This document shows positions 5,012 through 31,686 of a DNA stretch of 36,610 nucleotides, piece after piece (position 1 is the stretch's first letter; every line of letters begins with the position of its first letter). Below the pieces are notes generated by a model. That model made no database searches. It was given only the letters and a program-made list of their open reading frames with translations, and was not told the origin of the DNA. The stretch comes from a virus: positions 1 to 36,610 of the IMG/VR virus record IMGVR_UViG_3300042905_004053; one strand, written 5' to 3'. A program made the position numbers and the translations under genes.

Positions 5012-5436
5012 CAGGCTAGCTCCAGTACTCTTAGTTCAGATGTCCTACCTGACTCACATACTGCCCAGATTTCCATTGCTGGATTCTCTTTGATGTCTAG
5101 CGCTAACTCTTCCAGCGTGGTTTTAGGATAACCGCTTGTAGACGTAACAGTTAGGTCCTCTCCAAAATAAACCGTCTGATCGCCCCAAACACGAATCGAC
5201 AGAGCGTTGCGGTCTGTTAACGGAGAAGGAGTCACCAACGCTGGTACGTCAGTAACCGTTACAACACTTGTTTTGACGTTCTTAGACAATCCGGTCGGCT
5301 CAAACGTGCCTGAGATTGATCCGCCAATTACATTGACGTCAGCAGCTACTTTATCCCCAGCAAAAGCTGTCCCAGTTTGAATCTGTGCCGTTGATGGCGA
5401 TGATTTGGTTGTAGGATAAAGATCCACCCGCGACAT
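5011..5436 (-). CDS. Hypothetical structural protein (141 aa)
   Basis: The start ATG 5436 overlaps the upstream stop (TAATG) and the stop overlaps the next start (TGATG), so it lies inside a tightly coupled trio. The N-terminal half is low-complexity Thr/Ser/Gly beta (GTAFAGDKVAADVNVIGGSI). The C-terminal part contains VWGDQTVYFGEDLTVTS and a short helical end (TTLEELALDIKENPAMEIWAV). I do not recognise a family. Context suggests a virion component near the head or tail interface. Confidence 0.7.
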   Translation of the reverse strand: MSRVDLYPTTKSSPSTAQIQTGTAFAGDKVAADVNVIGGSISGTFEPTGLSKNVKTSVVTVTDVPALVTPSPLTDRNALSIRVWGDQTVYFGEDLTVTSTSGYPKTTLEELALDIKENPAMEIWAVCESGRTSELRVLELA

Positions 5437-5771
5437 TAGCGCCTCTTATCGTAGCAAATTGCACCAGATACCGTTGCAGTTTGCACTCCACCGGTTAACG
5501 TCCAATCTACACGGACAAAGCTTAGGGGCGAAGGAACCGTAATCAGCTTAAGGCCCGTGGCCGTTGCGCTGCCGGTTGCAATCTCGGCAAAACTTACCCC
5601 GTCAATCGAGGTCTTGATGGAAAACGCAAGAGTCGTGCCACCGCTCAGAGCTGACACGTCGGCTGCAAACACATGGTCAACCGTGTGTTGCTCAAGGCTT
5701 ACTTTATCCGCCGATCCCGATGCTCCAGAGAGCGACCCAAGCCCGATGTTATATTTGCTGACAGAAGCCAT
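5436..5771 (-). CDS. Hypothetical beta-rich structural protein (111 aa)
   Basis: Start ATG 5771, about 20 bases downstream of the tRNA-like element. The pattern SIDGVSFAEIATGSATATGL ... SFVRVDWTLTGG resembles the small beta-sandwich discoidin-like or decoration-type proteins common next to phage capsid genes (x-S-x-DGxxF ... RVxxT-x-TGG). The basic tail YDKRR ends the protein. No catalytic motif. It may decorate the capsid or belong to a tail accessory; the family assignment is tentative. Confidence 0.7.
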   Translation of the reverse strand: MASVSKYNIGLGSLSGASGSADKVSLEQHTVDHVFAADVSALSGGTTLAFSIKTSIDGVSFAEIATGSATATGLKLITVPSPLSFVRVDWTLTGGVQTATVSGAICYDKRR

Positions 5772-5790
5772 AAGGTCTCCAAAAAGTTAG

Positions 5791-5870
5791 GCGCGGGAGC
5801 CGGACTCGAACCGACGACTGGTAGGGAAGCGTCCTTGCTCCTACCCGCTCTGCCTCTGAGCTACCCCGCA
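5791..5870 (-). tRNA. tRNA-like element with a 9-nt-expanded anticodon region (isotype undetermined)
   Basis: Read on the minus strand, 5870 to 5791. There is a 7-bp acceptor (TGCGGGG with TCCCGCG), a D arm GCTC-loop-GAGC, a 5-bp T stem (GTCGG/CCGGC) closing a canonical TTCGAGT loop, and a 4-nt variable stretch. The anticodon stem GGTAG/CTACC is intact, but it encloses 16 nt instead of 7, and the inner bases can pair further to leave a 9-nt loop without the usual U33. No CCA is encoded. A G at -1 could pair with the discriminator C. It lies between two structural genes in the late transcript, so it would be transcribed. It may be a degenerate tRNA, a mimic that attracts RNase P or other tRNA enzymes, or a tRNA that is not used for decoding. 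Confidence 0.6.
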
Positions 5871-5881
5871 CCTAAACTATC

Positions 5882-6217
5882 TTAGTATTCGTCTACGGCG
5901 TCAAAGCCTTGGACAACCAAATGGAAGTCCGCGTCTTGGTCTACGCCTGCTGCGTCATAAATACGGACGCTGACAGACGAGGCCGACGTTGCAGAGATAG
6001 AGGCAATGATACCAGCCGATCCGTAGATCACGCTCGCAATAGCCACGCACTCACGCGCAAATGGCTTTTCAAACGTAACAACGTAACGGCCCTGAGCGGA
6101 ACGAGCAACGGTAGCGTCTTTCGATCCAATCAGAAGCGATGCACTGCCACCCGTGCCATCCACCTTGAAGTGAAGCTGGCGCGGAAGACGTTGTGGGGAC
6201 TTGATTTCTCTCAGCAT
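5882..6217 (-). CDS. Putative capsid-adjacent decoration/minor structural protein (111 aa)
   Basis: First gene after the major capsid gene; start ATG 6217 with GGAGAAAG about 6 bases upstream. The protein is a small beta-rich fold (RYVVTFEKPFARECVAIASVIYG; SVSVRIYDAAG; DFHLVVQGFDAVDEY). The VRIYDxxGxxxDxxFHLVVxGFD pattern is one I associate with short phage proteins close to head genes. No enzymatic motif or membrane segment. A decoration role is inferred from position and size alone. The tRNA-like element begins 11 bases after its stop. Confidence 0.7.
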   Translation of the reverse strand: MLREIKSPQRLPRQLHFKVDGTGGSASLLIGSKDATVARSAQGRYVVTFEKPFARECVAIASVIYGSAGIIASISATSASSVSVRIYDAAGVDQDADFHLVVQGFDAVDEY

Positions 6218-6275: not shown

Positions 6276-7487
6276 TTAGGTCGCAAGGCCCGTAATGACG
6301 CCGTGGAAGCTTGGGACGATGTACGACTCAAGGTATCCGCCGTAGCGTGCCTCGTAGGCGTCCGAAGAAGCCGTACGGAGGAACACGCTGCCGTCGTCGT
6401 CAAACCAGCCGAAGTCAGGCCGATGCTTCAGCTCAATGAAGTTGTCATTGAGCATGTACATGCGGTCGTCTTCGCAGAAGCGCTCTGGGAACACGCCGAC
6501 CGGACCAGCGGACGACATGAACTCGACGCCACGGAAGCTCACCTTGCCCTGAAGCTCAGGAGAGCGGGGCTCGATGATGTATTGCTTTTGGTCTTCGAGG
6601 ACGTTCAAGAGCTTACGGTACTGCGTGAAGCTCGTGATGATGAGGTTCGGCACCTTGCCGCACTTACGCTGAATCTCAAGCATCTGCTGATTCATGAGGT
6701 CAGGGGTGAGGCCAGCTCCGCCTGCAGCAAGCTGCGAAGCCTGCCAGCGACGGCCAACGGACACGCCATAGAGCGATCCGCCGGTTGCATCCAGAACGCC
6801 CTTAAGACCGCTTGGGTCGTTAGCTTGGGAGTTCTGCATGATGAGGGTCTTGGCGCCAGCATCAGCCGTCAAATCGACAGAGCCGGAGATACGAGCCAGC
6901 GAAACCTGCCGGGTAGCAGGATCAACCGACACGACTTCCCAGACGTTCGACACGCTGTAGGGGTTAGCCACAGAGTCAACGTTGATGTAGTCCTTCTCTT
7001 CGAAGTTAGCTTCCTTCCAGCTTGCAGCCGAAATGGTCACAACCGGAGCAGCAGCCGAGCCGGTAGCAACAGCAGCCGTGGACACGCCGAGCGAGCCCGA
7101 GCCGTCGTTGAAGAGAGCGCGGCTCATGTTGCGCATCCAAGATTCCACGCCCTTCTGGACGGAGAACTTGGTGAGTTCCACGAAAGCGCCTTCGTTGTTC
7201 GAAGCAGCCTTGATGGACTCGCGGTCAACTTGAATCACGGAGTACATCTTCTTAGCCGTGATCTGGGCGTCCTGAATCGCTGCGTAGTTCGGGGTCGGGA
7301 GAGATCCAGAGCCCACGCCGCCTGCGAAGGAGGTCGGGACAGCGATATCCATGCGCTTACCCGTGAAGTCGAAAGACTTCTTCACGCGGGCAAGGAGGAC
7401 GTTTGCCGAGTTGTAGGTGTTTTCAGAGAGCTTGCCGTACTTGATCTTGAAGAGATTAGTAGCGGTCGTCAGATTGAACTGAGCCAT
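6276..7487 (-). CDS. Major capsid protein (HK97-fold type)
   Basis: 403 aa, start ATG 7487 with AAGGG at a good distance. The gene directly follows the scaffold gene. Features of phage major capsid proteins are visible. The N-terminal arm leads into GKRMDIAVPTSFAGGVGSGSLPTP. A helical spine follows (ESIKAASNNEGAFVELTKF), then a P-domain/E-loop type region with VTISAASWKEANFEEKDYI, a DLMNQQMLEIQRKCGKVPNLIIT segment, and the C-terminal RYGGYLESYIVPSFHGVITGL, which resembles other capsid ends. Length fits the family (about 300-450 aa). It forms the procapsid shell around the scaffold. Assignment rests on context plus sequence character, without a search. Confidence 0.88.
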   Translation of the reverse strand: MAQFNLTTATNLFKIKYGKLSENTYNSANVLLARVKKSFDFTGKRMDIAVPTSFAGGVGSGSLPTPNYAAIQDAQITAKKMYSVIQVDRESIKAASNNEGAFVELTKFSVQKGVESWMRNMSRALFNDGSGSLGVSTAAVATGSAAAPVVTISAASWKEANFEEKDYINVDSVANPYSVSNVWEVVSVDPATRQVSLARISGSVDLTADAGAKTLIMQNSQANDPSGLKGVLDATGGSLYGVSVGRRWQASQLAAGGAGLTPDLMNQQMLEIQRKCGKVPNLIITSFTQYRKLLNVLEDQKQYIIEPRSPELQGKVSFRGVEFMSSAGPVGVFPERFCEDDRMYMLNDNFIELKHRPDFGWFDDDGSVFLRTASSDAYEARYGGYLESYIVPSFHGVITGLAT

Positions 7488-15866: not shown

Positions 15867-16008
15867 GGTCTGCGCTAACTGTGAAGAACGGGCGCCAGTG
15901 CCGCTTAAAGGGTACTGTCAGCGGTGCCTCGACAATCGGCAAGAGTCGAAGGCGGAAGCCTGCGAGGACCGCTTAGAACGTGGCTGGTACGATGCCCGCT
16001 TCCGTTAA
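15829..16008 (+). CDS. Zinc-ribbon protein (59 aa)
   Basis: I choose ATG 15829 (METKKKPVRRLTRVC), 5-6 bases after AAGGA, rather than the long frame from 15694. Four cysteines as CANC ... CQRC (C-x2-C-x12-C-x2-C), with a basic N-terminus and a charged helical end (ESKAEACEDRLERGW). Its TAA stop sits in a TTAA palindrome that also supplies the stop of the convergent metallophosphoesterase gene, so the two genes meet tail to tail with a 4-base overlap. Confidence 0.75.
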   Translation: METKKKPVRRLTRVCANCEERAPVPLKGYCQRCLDNRQESKAEACEDRLERGWYDARFR

Positions 16009-16955
16009 AACGGTACGAACCGAGGCCCGAGGGAGTCGATAATCCCTACCCCTTGCGTCCAGTCTGTGATCTTTTGGGGAGTGTAGCTTAGGCCCTTGCT
16101 GGTCGGGTCTGCGAGGAAGCCGCAGTTCAGCTCCCAGAGGGTCTTCCCCCGGATATGTTTAAAAGCCACGCCCCCCCGGTGCGAGTGCCCCACTACCGCG
16201 TTGTGCATCATGTAACTGGCGTGATCTCCAAGGCGGGTCCTGTAGCCATGCAGGAACGCGATGCCGTCAATAATCAGTTCTTCGCGGTGGTCGGCGATGA
16301 GTTCGACGCCCTCGAAGCGGTAGAAGCGGTCTAGCTCCAAGAACACCTCCAAAGCGGGCGCCACCTCGAGGACCCTTTTAAGGGGTCGGATGTCATGGTT
16401 ACCCCTGATCTGGATCAGCCTTGCCTGCGGCACTATGGCACGGATCTTGCGCCACATTTCCTTCGCACCCTCAAACGCGCCTTCAATCTCCCCCTTCGGG
16501 GTGAAGTGCAGCTGAGAGGACGGGAACTTGCTCCACGATAGCATATCGTGCAGATCCCCCATCTGAATCACGACAGTCGGCTGCAGGCGCTCTGCTAGGT
16601 CGTAGACTCGCTCTAATGCCCGTGGATCGGCGAATGGAAAGTGAGTGTCCCCCAAGCACAGAAACACGTTGGAGATTGGCGCAGGGGCTTCCACGGGTTC
16701 CGCGGGCAGTCTCGCGTGCTGGATCTCTAGGTGCTCGGCCAAATCCCGGCGCATGAACGGGGTTCGGTCTTTCTTTCTCGGATTGTGCCCTTCGAGGCCT
16801 GCGGCCTGCAGCATGGCGGTGTAGCTTCCGAATGCCCTTGCAAGCCTGCTTTTCCCGCTTGGAACTCGATTGTCGAACTCGTCACGAGTTGGAGTCCTGC
16901 CGAGGTCGAGCGCGATCGCTTTCAGGGCCGCAAGTAGTTCGTGATGATCGTCCAT
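16005..16955 (-). CDS. Metallophosphoesterase with N-terminal HARE-like (homing-endonuclease-associated) repeat
   Basis: 316 aa from ATG 16955 (MDDHHELL). The frame is open to 17252, but that would cross the promoter and gene on the other strand. Residues 5-53 (LLAALKAIALDLGRTPTRDEF ... FGSYTAMLQAAGL) match the homing-endonuclease-associated DNA-binding repeat pattern. Residues 96-300 hold a calcineurin-like phosphoesterase with all motifs: GDTH (102-105), GDLHD (133-137), GNHD (185-188), HGY (236-238) and GHSH (256-259). Such enzymes cut phosphodiesters in nucleic acids or nucleotides with two metal ions. A repeat that reads DNA fused to it suggests a DNA-processing nuclease. It is the only gene on the minus strand inside the plus-strand early block. 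The ribosome site is weak. Confidence 0.85.
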   Translation of the reverse strand: MDDHHELLAALKAIALDLGRTPTRDEFDNRVPSGKSRLARAFGSYTAMLQAAGLEGHNPRKKDRTPFMRRDLAEHLEIQHARLPAEPVEAPAPISNVFLCLGDTHFPFADPRALERVYDLAERLQPTVVIQMGDLHDMLSWSKFPSSQLHFTPKGEIEGAFEGAKEMWRKIRAIVPQARLIQIRGNHDIRPLKRVLEVAPALEVFLELDRFYRFEGVELIADHREELIIDGIAFLHGYRTRLGDHASYMMHNAVVGHSHRGGVAFKHIRGKTLWELNCGFLADPTSKGLSYTPQKITDWTQGVGIIDSLGPRFVPF

Positions 16956-16983
16956 TGATGAAATCGTGAAGGATTTTTGCCGG

Positions 16984-17012
16984 TTGGCAAGGATTATGTA
17001 ACGGGCGATAAT
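16984..17012 (+). promoter_or_regulatory. Near-consensus sigma70 promoter for the 65-aa gene
   Basis: TTGGCA (16984-16989, one mismatch to TTGACA), exactly 17 bases, then GATAAT (17007-17012, one mismatch to TATAAT). A start of transcription near 17019 would give a leader of about 27 bases carrying AAGGAG. It is the best host-type promoter I can see in the window. Confidence 0.8.
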
Positions 17013-17045
17013 ACAGCCTAATCCCCTGCAGGGAAGGAGAACGGT

Positions 17046-17243
17046 ATGGAATACGGAAAAGGTAAAGAGCCAAGTTTGAAGGGTAAGGGCGGTCGGGACG
17101 CTTCCAGCTACAAGTCGGAAACCGGCGGAATGGCTGGCGGCAAGAAGATGGACAAGCTTGCTGCACAAGGCGGCGCCAAGGGAAAAGATGCTTCGCAATA
17201 CTCTGAAAGTAATGTAAACGGAGCACGTAAGGCTGGAGCTTAA
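17046..17243 (+). CDS. Small disordered basic protein in its own transcription unit (65 aa)
   Basis: ATG 17046 has GGAAGGAG about 8 bases upstream, the strongest ribosome site among the early genes. The protein is Gly/Lys/Ala/Ser-rich with no hydrophobic core (KGKGGRDASSYKSETGG, GGKKMDKLAAQGGAKGKDAS); two related segments G-K-G-x-DAS-x-Y-x-SE suggest an internal duplication. No signal peptide. It is flanked by a near-consensus promoter and a strong terminator, so it is probably made independently and in large amount. It recalls KGG-type stress proteins in composition only. Function unknown; a host-acting, DNA-binding or capsid-loaded protein are all possible. Confidence 0.8.
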   Translation: MEYGKGKEPSLKGKGGRDASSYKSETGGMAGGKKMDKLAAQGGAKGKDASQYSESNVNGARKAGA

Positions 17244-17252
17244 TTCGGCCAC

Positions 17253-18932: not shown

Positions 18933-19007
18933 TGGGGGGCAGCATGATGGTCATGCAACGCGCTGTTAACGCGTCCGATGGAGGTTCGATTCCTTCCCCC
19001 CCAGCCA
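18933..19007 (+). tRNA. tRNA-Asn (anticodon GTT), CCA encoded
   Basis: Complete cloverleaf: acceptor TGGGGGG/CCCCCCA with discriminator G and encoded CCA (19005-19007). D arm GCAT-GATGGTC-ATGC. Anticodon stem ACGCG/CGCGT with loop CTGTTAA, so the anticodon is GTT with U33 and A37. Variable loop 5 nt. T stem GGAGG/CCTTC with TTCGATT. All arms pair. It decodes AAC/AAT. It could serve phage translation or replace a host tRNA cut by defence nucleases; there is no integrase in the window, so an attachment site is less likely. Confidence 0.95.
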
Positions 19008-31178: not shown

Positions 31179-31430
31179 TTATTCCTCTGCTTTCTGCTGG
31201 CCTTTCATCTTGGCGACGATGAGAGCAACCTTGCCCTTGTCAGGACCGGCGCCCATTTCTTCCTCTTCGCCTTCTTCCTCTTCGTAACCTTCCTGATCGG
31301 AGCACATTTCAACAAGGTGCTCAACCGACGTTCCAGACTTCTCGGCAAGCATTTGAAGCTTGGCAACAAGCCCCTTGGCTTCCGCCATGTCCTTCTCAGC
31401 AATCGGTTTGTGATCCATTTTTTCCATCAT
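31179..31430 (-). CDS. Small acidic protein (83 aa)
   Basis: ATG 31430, stop adjacent to the adaptor start. Helical (AKGLVAKLQMLAEKSGTSVEHLVEMC) followed by a dense Glu run (EGYEEEEGEEEEMG) and a short helix. No enzyme motif. Very acidic small proteins beside adaptor genes may act as DNA mimics or assembly chaperones; nothing specific can be said. Confidence 0.7.
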   Translation of the reverse strand: MMEKMDHKPIAEKDMAEAKGLVAKLQMLAEKSGTSVEHLVEMCSDQEGYEEEEGEEEEMGAGPDKGKVALIVAKMKGQQKAEE

Positions 31431-31431
31431 A

Positions 31432-31686
31432 CTAGCATCTCCATCGCTTCAGGGCTGCGCCCTTTGGGGTTAGCTTTCCGCCTTCACTCGTCGGACCTTT
31501 GACTCCAGACATTCGAGCGCAAAAACTACGCCTACGAGCAGCTCGACCTGGGTCTGGATTCTTCTCTGTCACAGGCGCCTGAAGCTTAGATCCGGTTTCC
31601 CGGTTCATTCGCTTCCGAGCCTTCTCGTTCAAACCGCCCGTCCGAGCATGGCGTTTAGGATTATAGCCTTTAAAGGGCTTGCTCAT
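31432..31686 (-). CDS. Conserved-type basic phage protein (GGLN ... FCARMSG, 84 aa)
   Basis: Overlaps its upstream neighbour (ATGA). I recognise the pattern TGGLNEKARKRMNRETGSKLQAPVTEKNP ... RRRSFCARMSGVKGP ... LTPKGAALKRWRC as a widespread small phage family (DUF6321-like in form), found in many tailed phages with no known function. Basic with two cysteines. It lies between small virion-region proteins; it may be packaged or act on nucleic acid. Confidence 0.85.
   Translation of the reverse strand: MSKPFKGYNPKRHARTGGLNEKARKRMNRETGSKLQAPVTEKNPDPGRAARRRSFCARMSGVKGPTSEGGKLTPKGAALKRWRC

Follow-up and report, generated by a model that had tools for sequence, protein, structure and literature searches.

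The window, i.e., the whole stretch of DNA analyzed here, is a 36,610-base IMG/VR virus record in which the terminase, portal, major head protein, and tail-type genes are all carried on the minus strand. Between two genes of this strand, each specifying a product of 111 amino acids (aa), lies an element which folds as a tRNA cloverleaf but whose anticodon arm is enlarged (minus strand, 5870 to 5792), hereinafter termed the TLS (tRNA-like element). Its numbering follows that of tRNA, with T1 at 5870, G72 at 5792, and N73 at 5791. The features of the locus, all on the minus strand, are as follows.

6276 to 7487, minus strand: major head protein gene, the upstream neighbor (phrog_14242, 2.6e-23), used as the query for relatives
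5882 to 6217, minus strand: gene for a 111-aa structural-type protein, immediately upstream of the TLS, its stop codon 11 nt ahead of it
5792 to 5870, minus strand: TLS core (acceptor, D arm, extended anticodon arm, and T arm)
5864 to 5870, minus strand: acceptor 5′ strand, TGCGGGG, partnered with 5792 to 5798 and paired in 44 to 45 of 45 copies per position
5847 to 5861, minus strand: D arm, GCTC-AGAGGCA-GAGC, including G18-G19, the GG being invariant in A2
5820 to 5845, minus strand: rebuilt anticodon arm, GGTAGG / AGC bulge / AAG-GACG-CTT / C / CCTACC, with arm covariation in relatives
5830 to 5833, minus strand: GACG tetraloop, the conserved apical loop, from alignment to the terL-lineage model
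5799 to 5815, minus strand: T arm, GTCGG-TTCGAGT-CCGGC
5792 to 5798, minus strand: acceptor 3′ strand, TCCCGCG
5789 to 5791, minus strand: positions 73 to 75, C-C-T (N73, C74)
5436 to 5771, minus strand: downstream 111-aa gene, its ATG 20 nt past the TLS with GGAG in between

Elsewhere, the window harbors an ordinary tRNA-Asn(GTT) gene with an encoded CCA (18933 to 19007, plus strand, i.e., opposite to the late genes) and a fusion-like open reading frame (16005 to 17252, minus strand) in which a homing-endonuclease-associated HNH repeat is followed by a metallophosphoesterase domain.

The acceptor stem (TGCGGGG/TCCCGCG) comprises 7 bp, two of which are G-U, and could be lengthened by the flanking bases; TA separates it from the D arm, which is followed by G26, while the variable region is AGTC (4 nt). 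The 5-bp anticodon stem (GGTAG/CTACC) encloses 16 nt and U33 is absent. A preliminary description of the locus had reported intact acceptor, D, and T arms, a variable region of normal length, a 16-nt anticodon interior, and a missing U33, and exactly this arrangement was recovered on the minus strand. The 9-nt loop which it had placed within that interior was not: the minimum free energy (MFE) fold of the lone window TLS has a hexaloop in the anticodon arm, and the relatives support an inner stem, AAG/CTT, closed by a GACG tetraloop. When the window anticodon arm is folded alone, the GACG register costs 1.7 kcal/mol relative to the MFE fold, and its assignment in the window is therefore taken from the relatives. 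The fold of the window TLS has a z-score of -3.6, with 1 of 200 shuffles being equally good.

Neither ARAGORN nor the Rfam tRNA model (RF00005) called the window TLS, which falls below the cutoff of the latter, the tRNA-Asn at 18933 to 19007 being the only call of either in the window. Its best match within the tRNA clan is tRNA-Sec (RF01852), at 18.4 bits against a cutoff of 47, and the 4-nt variable region differs from the long variable arm of that family. The TLSs of many relatives score approximately 39 to 58 bits against the RF00005 cutoff of 29, and the likeness to tRNA extends to the acceptor, D, and T arms, U8, A14, G18-G19, a T loop of the form TTCGAN, and the 15-48 pair. The TLS differs from tRNA in having an inner hairpin that extends the anticodon arm, in lacking U33 and an anticodon, and in retaining CC rather than CCA.

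A search with the major head protein yielded 78 related viral loci, many of which carry a TLS on the same strand, approximately 400 nt downstream of the head protein gene in a gap of approximately 100 nt. Among the 64 slots analyzed in these relatives, the TLS is present in 33 (32 by script and L047 by reading). The slots of this family are tight, the preceding stop codon mostly being positioned 7 to 13 nt ahead of the TLS and the next ATG 11 to 23 nt beyond it. In four loci (L018, L019, L022, and L047), the downstream gene begins 11 to 12 nt past the TLS and, unlike in most relatives, a Shine-Dalgarno sequence is not visible; the TLS may form part of the ribosome-binding context there.

A second lineage, found by means of a pattern search (D arm, GACG, and T arm) and expanded through a terL search, carries the TLS directly after terL, and the large terminases of the two lineages are only 26% identical across 200 aa. 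The first covariance model matched in 35 of 51 whole records scanned; in one record (L046), the TLS occupies another place, and in another (L133), it lies near an endolysin-like gene. GACG-capped TLSs were also found in unrelated contigs, near an endolysin gene (L161), 5′ of a small terminase operon (L151), and after an exonuclease gene (L146), as well as near the tRNA genes of larger phages (L156, L163, L165, L169, and L089). The copies in unrelated contigs were identified by requiring GACG and thus provide no measure of its frequency, whereas the two main lineages, sampled mainly via proteins, do. A near-identical pattern returned 3 matches in 85k genomes, compared to 36 stretches in viral contigs (a few being ordinary tRNAs); none of the 3 is a clear member, and a cellular origin was discounted. 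Head protein and DNA searches of the annotated phage set returned no isolate of the window's family, and the terL of the second lineage matched isolates only at below 60% identity. No family describing the TLS was found in Rfam, nor any paper on it in the open-access literature searched.

Structural conservation was assessed across 45 distinct copies. Up to five standard pair types occur at individual positions of the acceptor stem, while the D stem is paired in 44 to 45 and the T stem in 38 to 45 of the copies, some terL-lineage members containing an additional nucleotide there. The 15-48 (Levitt) pair varies in step, being G15-C48 in 30/45 and A15-T48 in 6/45, an indication that selection acts on the L-shape. 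Compensatory changes affect every helix, both portions of the anticodon arm among them, at a level reached by 0 of 500 shuffles of the clade alignments, and whole-structure covariation also exceeded that of all slid controls; covariation in the arm was scored mostly clade by clade, since MAFFT mis-registers the anticodon arm between clades, and relatedness inflates the sequence counts.

A covariance model built on the terL lineage alone (R2) recovered the window copy within the 36.6 kb at 54.7 bits (E value of 5.7e-11) and placed GACG in the loop; as this model derives from another phage lineage, the match is far beyond chance. R2 also scored the true tRNA-Asn of the window (34.7 bits, with the inner hairpin treated as absent) and ordinary T4 tRNAs (up to 49.9 bits), and it is, therefore, the anatomy of the arm rather than the score which separates the TLS from tRNA. 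The TLS is a conserved RNA and not a decaying tRNA, its arms and placement being retained in a manner that implies selection. The preliminary description had preferred a tRNA mimic to decay, a preference strongly supported, since two lineages conserve the arms, the tertiary pair, and the position and show compensatory changes. It had also named relatives with a normal 7-nt loop, or arms lacking conservation, as grounds for abandoning that reading; none of the 45 copies has an anticodon region of normal length, and the arms are kept.

In these copies, approximately 28 to 37 nt lie between the D and T stems. From base to tip, the enlarged arm consists of a 5-bp stem, a bulge or internal loop, a second (inner) stem, and the apical loop. 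In 29/45, this loop is GACG on a stem of at least 2 bp (26 by script, with L019, L020, and L022, which contain overlapping GACGACG, added by eye), closed by G-C, C-G, or U-A; flanking pairs and stems change while GACG persists. The conserved insertion with a covarying stem which had been predicted is thus borne out, its shape being that of a hairpin usually capped by GACG and not that of a 9-nt loop. GACG is absent in 13 copies, and the other apical loops are CGG (in one clade), loops containing GTCGAC or CGACGTCG, GAAAGA, AGGA/TGGA, and a few more. Palindromic loops, namely, GTCGAC in L010/L041, CGACGTCG in L011, and TGTACA in L014, are suggestive of kissing in these individual cases; as general support for kissing they were set aside, since self-complementary loops among copies without a GACG tetraloop were not significant overall (combined P of about 0.15). 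A tRNA intron was also discarded, as removal of the inner hairpin still leaves no 7-nt loop with U33, and guanidine-II riboswitch hairpins (ACGR loops) differ in register.

In the RNA of murine retroviruses, GACG tetraloops are known to dimerize with one another by kissing, through two C-G pairs only (PMC7357161; PMC516450). The GACG hairpin tetraloop is common to the TLS, SL-C/SL-D of murine leukemia/sarcoma virus (PDB 1F5U; PMC7357161), and Maedi-Visna virus (PMC516450); the retroviral hairpins reside in genomic RNA, whereas those of the TLS are borne on a tRNA scaffold in the late operons of DNA phages. The invariance of GACG suggests a second role for the TLS.

At the 3′ end, C74 is present in 40/45, C75 in 34/45, and A76 in 10/45 copies, while the tRNA-Asn genes of three TLS-bearing phages all encode CCA (3/3). 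Pairing of RCC with RNase P RNA is known to aid cleavage (PMC12710915), and retention of CC but not of A76 is as expected if the contact between NCC and RNase P matters and charging does not. The combination of NCC at positions 73 to 75 with stacked acceptor and T arms, as expected of RNase P substrates of the non-tRNA type, is found in the TLS set, the window copy having C74 but T75. Positions -1 and 73 are complementary in 30/45, compared to a shuffled mean of 20.5 (P = 0.002, relatedness being ignored).

Among the 64 slots, 33 contain a TLS, 8 a strict intrinsic terminator, and 23 neither, the terminator rate in shuffled TLS-free slots being 1.5%; by reading, several of the 23 have looser hairpins and T runs, and others are nearly gapless. 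The presence of terminators in TLS-free slots is as expected if both TLS and terminator mark a transcript boundary, and the two seem to be interchangeable in this capacity.

On these grounds, an explanation is tentatively favored, at a confidence short of even, in which the TLS is a tRNA mimic cut by RNase P at a late-mRNA boundary, with a rebuilt anticodon arm whose GACG loop perhaps pairs copies. The TLS would be a structured RNA on a tRNA scaffold, cotranscribed with the late (virion) genes, and its likeness to precursor tRNA suggests that host RNase P would cleave the polycistronic late transcript around 5870/5871, where the TLS begins on its 5′ side. Such a cut would separate the upstream message, encompassing the major head protein gene and the decoration-like gene, from a downstream message which would then start with a stable tRNA-shaped cap, unless the TLS is freed as a small stable RNA. 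The rebuilt anticodon arm would preclude any action in translation, and the GACG loop, being of the self-complementary kissing type, may pair two TLS copies. Within this explanation, we infer the cutting step to be the likelier component and the pairing step the weaker one. Probably, a tRNA has here been converted by the phage into a nontranslating RNA tool. Among the three functions that the preliminary description had offered (an RNase P processing mark in late mRNA, a decoy for tRNA-cutting defense nucleases, and a binding site for a tRNA-binding protein), the first appears to fit best because of the tight intergenic slots, the CC at positions 74 and 75, and the terminators in the corresponding slot of relatives.

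Several observations count against this explanation. The complementarity of -1 and 73 is untypical of the best RNase P sites, a pure cutting mark needs no invariant GACG, and kissing is opposed by the copies devoid of GACG and by the register in the window, which is not that of the MFE fold. The genomic position also differs by lineage (after the gene that follows the head protein gene, after terL, near endolysin genes, 5′ of a terS operon, and after an exonuclease gene), which would be explained equally well by a small RNA acting in trans. In that case, the late transcript would be only a vehicle and the tRNA scaffold a means of stabilization and maturation, the GACG hairpin being the working part, which kisses a copy or another RNA or binds a protein. 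This second explanation is possible, if doubtful: it accommodates a GACG which is kept while closing pairs and stems vary, a loop already known for RNA-RNA contact (PMC7357161; PMC516450), and the location near tRNA genes in larger phages (L156 and L169). It sits less easily with the single, nearly fixed intergenic slot of each of the two best-sampled lineages, often occupied by terminators in TLS-free relatives, which points to a role in cis, and with the existence of non-GACG loops. By analogy with the retroviral loops, the TLS might represent a class of phage RNA not described before, namely, a tRNA body with a GACG kissing loop that pairs late transcripts, or RNAs released by RNase P, by their anticodon ends, with a role in late expression or assembly, although we consider this unlikely.

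An improbable third reading is that of a decoy or sponge for host defenses which target tRNA (anticodon nucleases or tRNA sensors), the TLS presenting a tRNA body whose anticodon could not be productively cut. Anticodon nucleases are widespread and phage tRNAs bear changes in the anticodon loop (PMC10264068), and the retention of the tRNA body with loss of the decoding part would suit such a function; the TLS arm, however, imitates no 7-nt anticodon loop, lacks U33, and carries a GACG loop conserved across lineages rather than varied to fit targets, while expression from late structural slots would be late for defense. Even less credence is given to a boundary of the terminator or attenuator type, at which the GC-rich acceptor stem and T-rich sequence would stop or pause the polymerase and the likeness to tRNA would be secondary. 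Terminators do occupy the slot in some TLS-free relatives, T is common at positions 76 to 79, and a run of at least four T residues occurs within 14 nt in 14/45 copies, with eight T residues directly behind the stem in L036. Such a run is missing in 31/45, so that most copies lack the GC-rich hairpin directly followed by a U tract of an intrinsic terminator, and the D loop, T loop, and 15-48 pair are conserved though a terminator needs none of them.

It is very improbable that the TLS is a functional tRNA which contains a 9-nt intron or decodes in an unusual way: the cloverleaf is complete, ARAGORN calls some relatives as tRNA, and the Lilbooboo relative is annotated as tRNA-Gly, yet U33 and a common anticodon are lacking, N73 may be C, T, G, or A, the insert varies in length, and CCA is not kept. 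A decaying tRNA gene or a chance fold, as the lack of an ARAGORN call in the window might suggest, is ruled out by the conserved slot, the covariation in every arm, and the cross-lineage model match.

The favored RNase P-cut mimic has partial counterparts among known RNAs. The C4 antisense RNA of phages P1 and P7 possesses a tRNA-like fold which is cut by RNase P. The same is true of plant-virus tRNA-like structures (PMC7881203) and of MALAT1/mascRNA (PMC9777231). These non-tRNA substrates differ from the TLS, a putative RNase P substrate, in anatomy and context. A division of phage mRNA by a host RNase at intercistronic structures is exemplified by the RNase III sites of phage T7. These sites are simple hairpins, served by an enzyme other than the RNase P proposed for the TLS. 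The pseudo-tRNA tRNA-Other of Bacillus cereus (PMC3399842) is, as is proposed for the TLS, a tRNA-like RNA outside translation, but it retains the anticodon for Trp and serves in regulation of the cell itself. Noncanonical arm lengths and a longer anticodon stem are shared with tRNA-Sec, allo-tRNA, and tRNA-Pyl (PMC7609411), all of which, unlike the TLS, keep a decoding loop. The T4 stable RNAs rnaC and rnaD were considered and not accepted as members; rnaC (L206:1109-1247) has a canonical T arm at its end and GACG near its apical hairpin, a possible distant parallel, but its predicted fold has no clear cloverleaf.

A tRNA call in a phage is commonly interpreted as codon supply or escape from defense, whereas the TLS set cannot decode and sits at boundaries within virion operons. 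Should RNase P cut the TLS, phages divide their late mRNA via the host tRNA-processing enzyme, and pairing of the GACG loops would mean that phages make independent use of an RNA contact known from retroviruses. Calls of “tRNA-???” in phages deserve reexamination.

GNRA-capped tRNA-like genes with an extended anticodon arm were also observed in phiC31 (L147:4262-4347, about 31424 to 31509 of NC_001978, unannotated) and in the Streptomyces phage Lilbooboo (NC_048155, 30716 to 30803, the gene annotated as tRNA-Gly), in both cases near a sigma-factor-like gene. The phiC31 element is capped by GAAA, and this cultured phage makes a non-GACG version testable in the laboratory.

Three further observations concern the genomes surveyed. 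A strongly folding insert of approximately 230 nt interrupts the major head protein gene at the same position, after codon 19, in the TLS-bearing relatives L036 (2480 to 2711), L045 (2988 to 3215), and L047 (6058 to 6288), and also in L062. The L047 insert, with short exon flanks, has a fold z-score of -4.9, and that of L036 gave no Rfam match even at an E value of 5; P1- and P7-like pairing suggests a small group I intron. A recurrent tRNA-like gene with an ordinary anticodon loop and a long variable arm (GACGGCCAGATTAGCCGACG) occurs in L143, L148, L149, L152, L153, L158, L159, L162, L168, L170, and L171. Finally, in Streptomyces sp. AJS327 (L109:2233-2545), two odd tRNA-??? genes flank a tRNA-Leu call.
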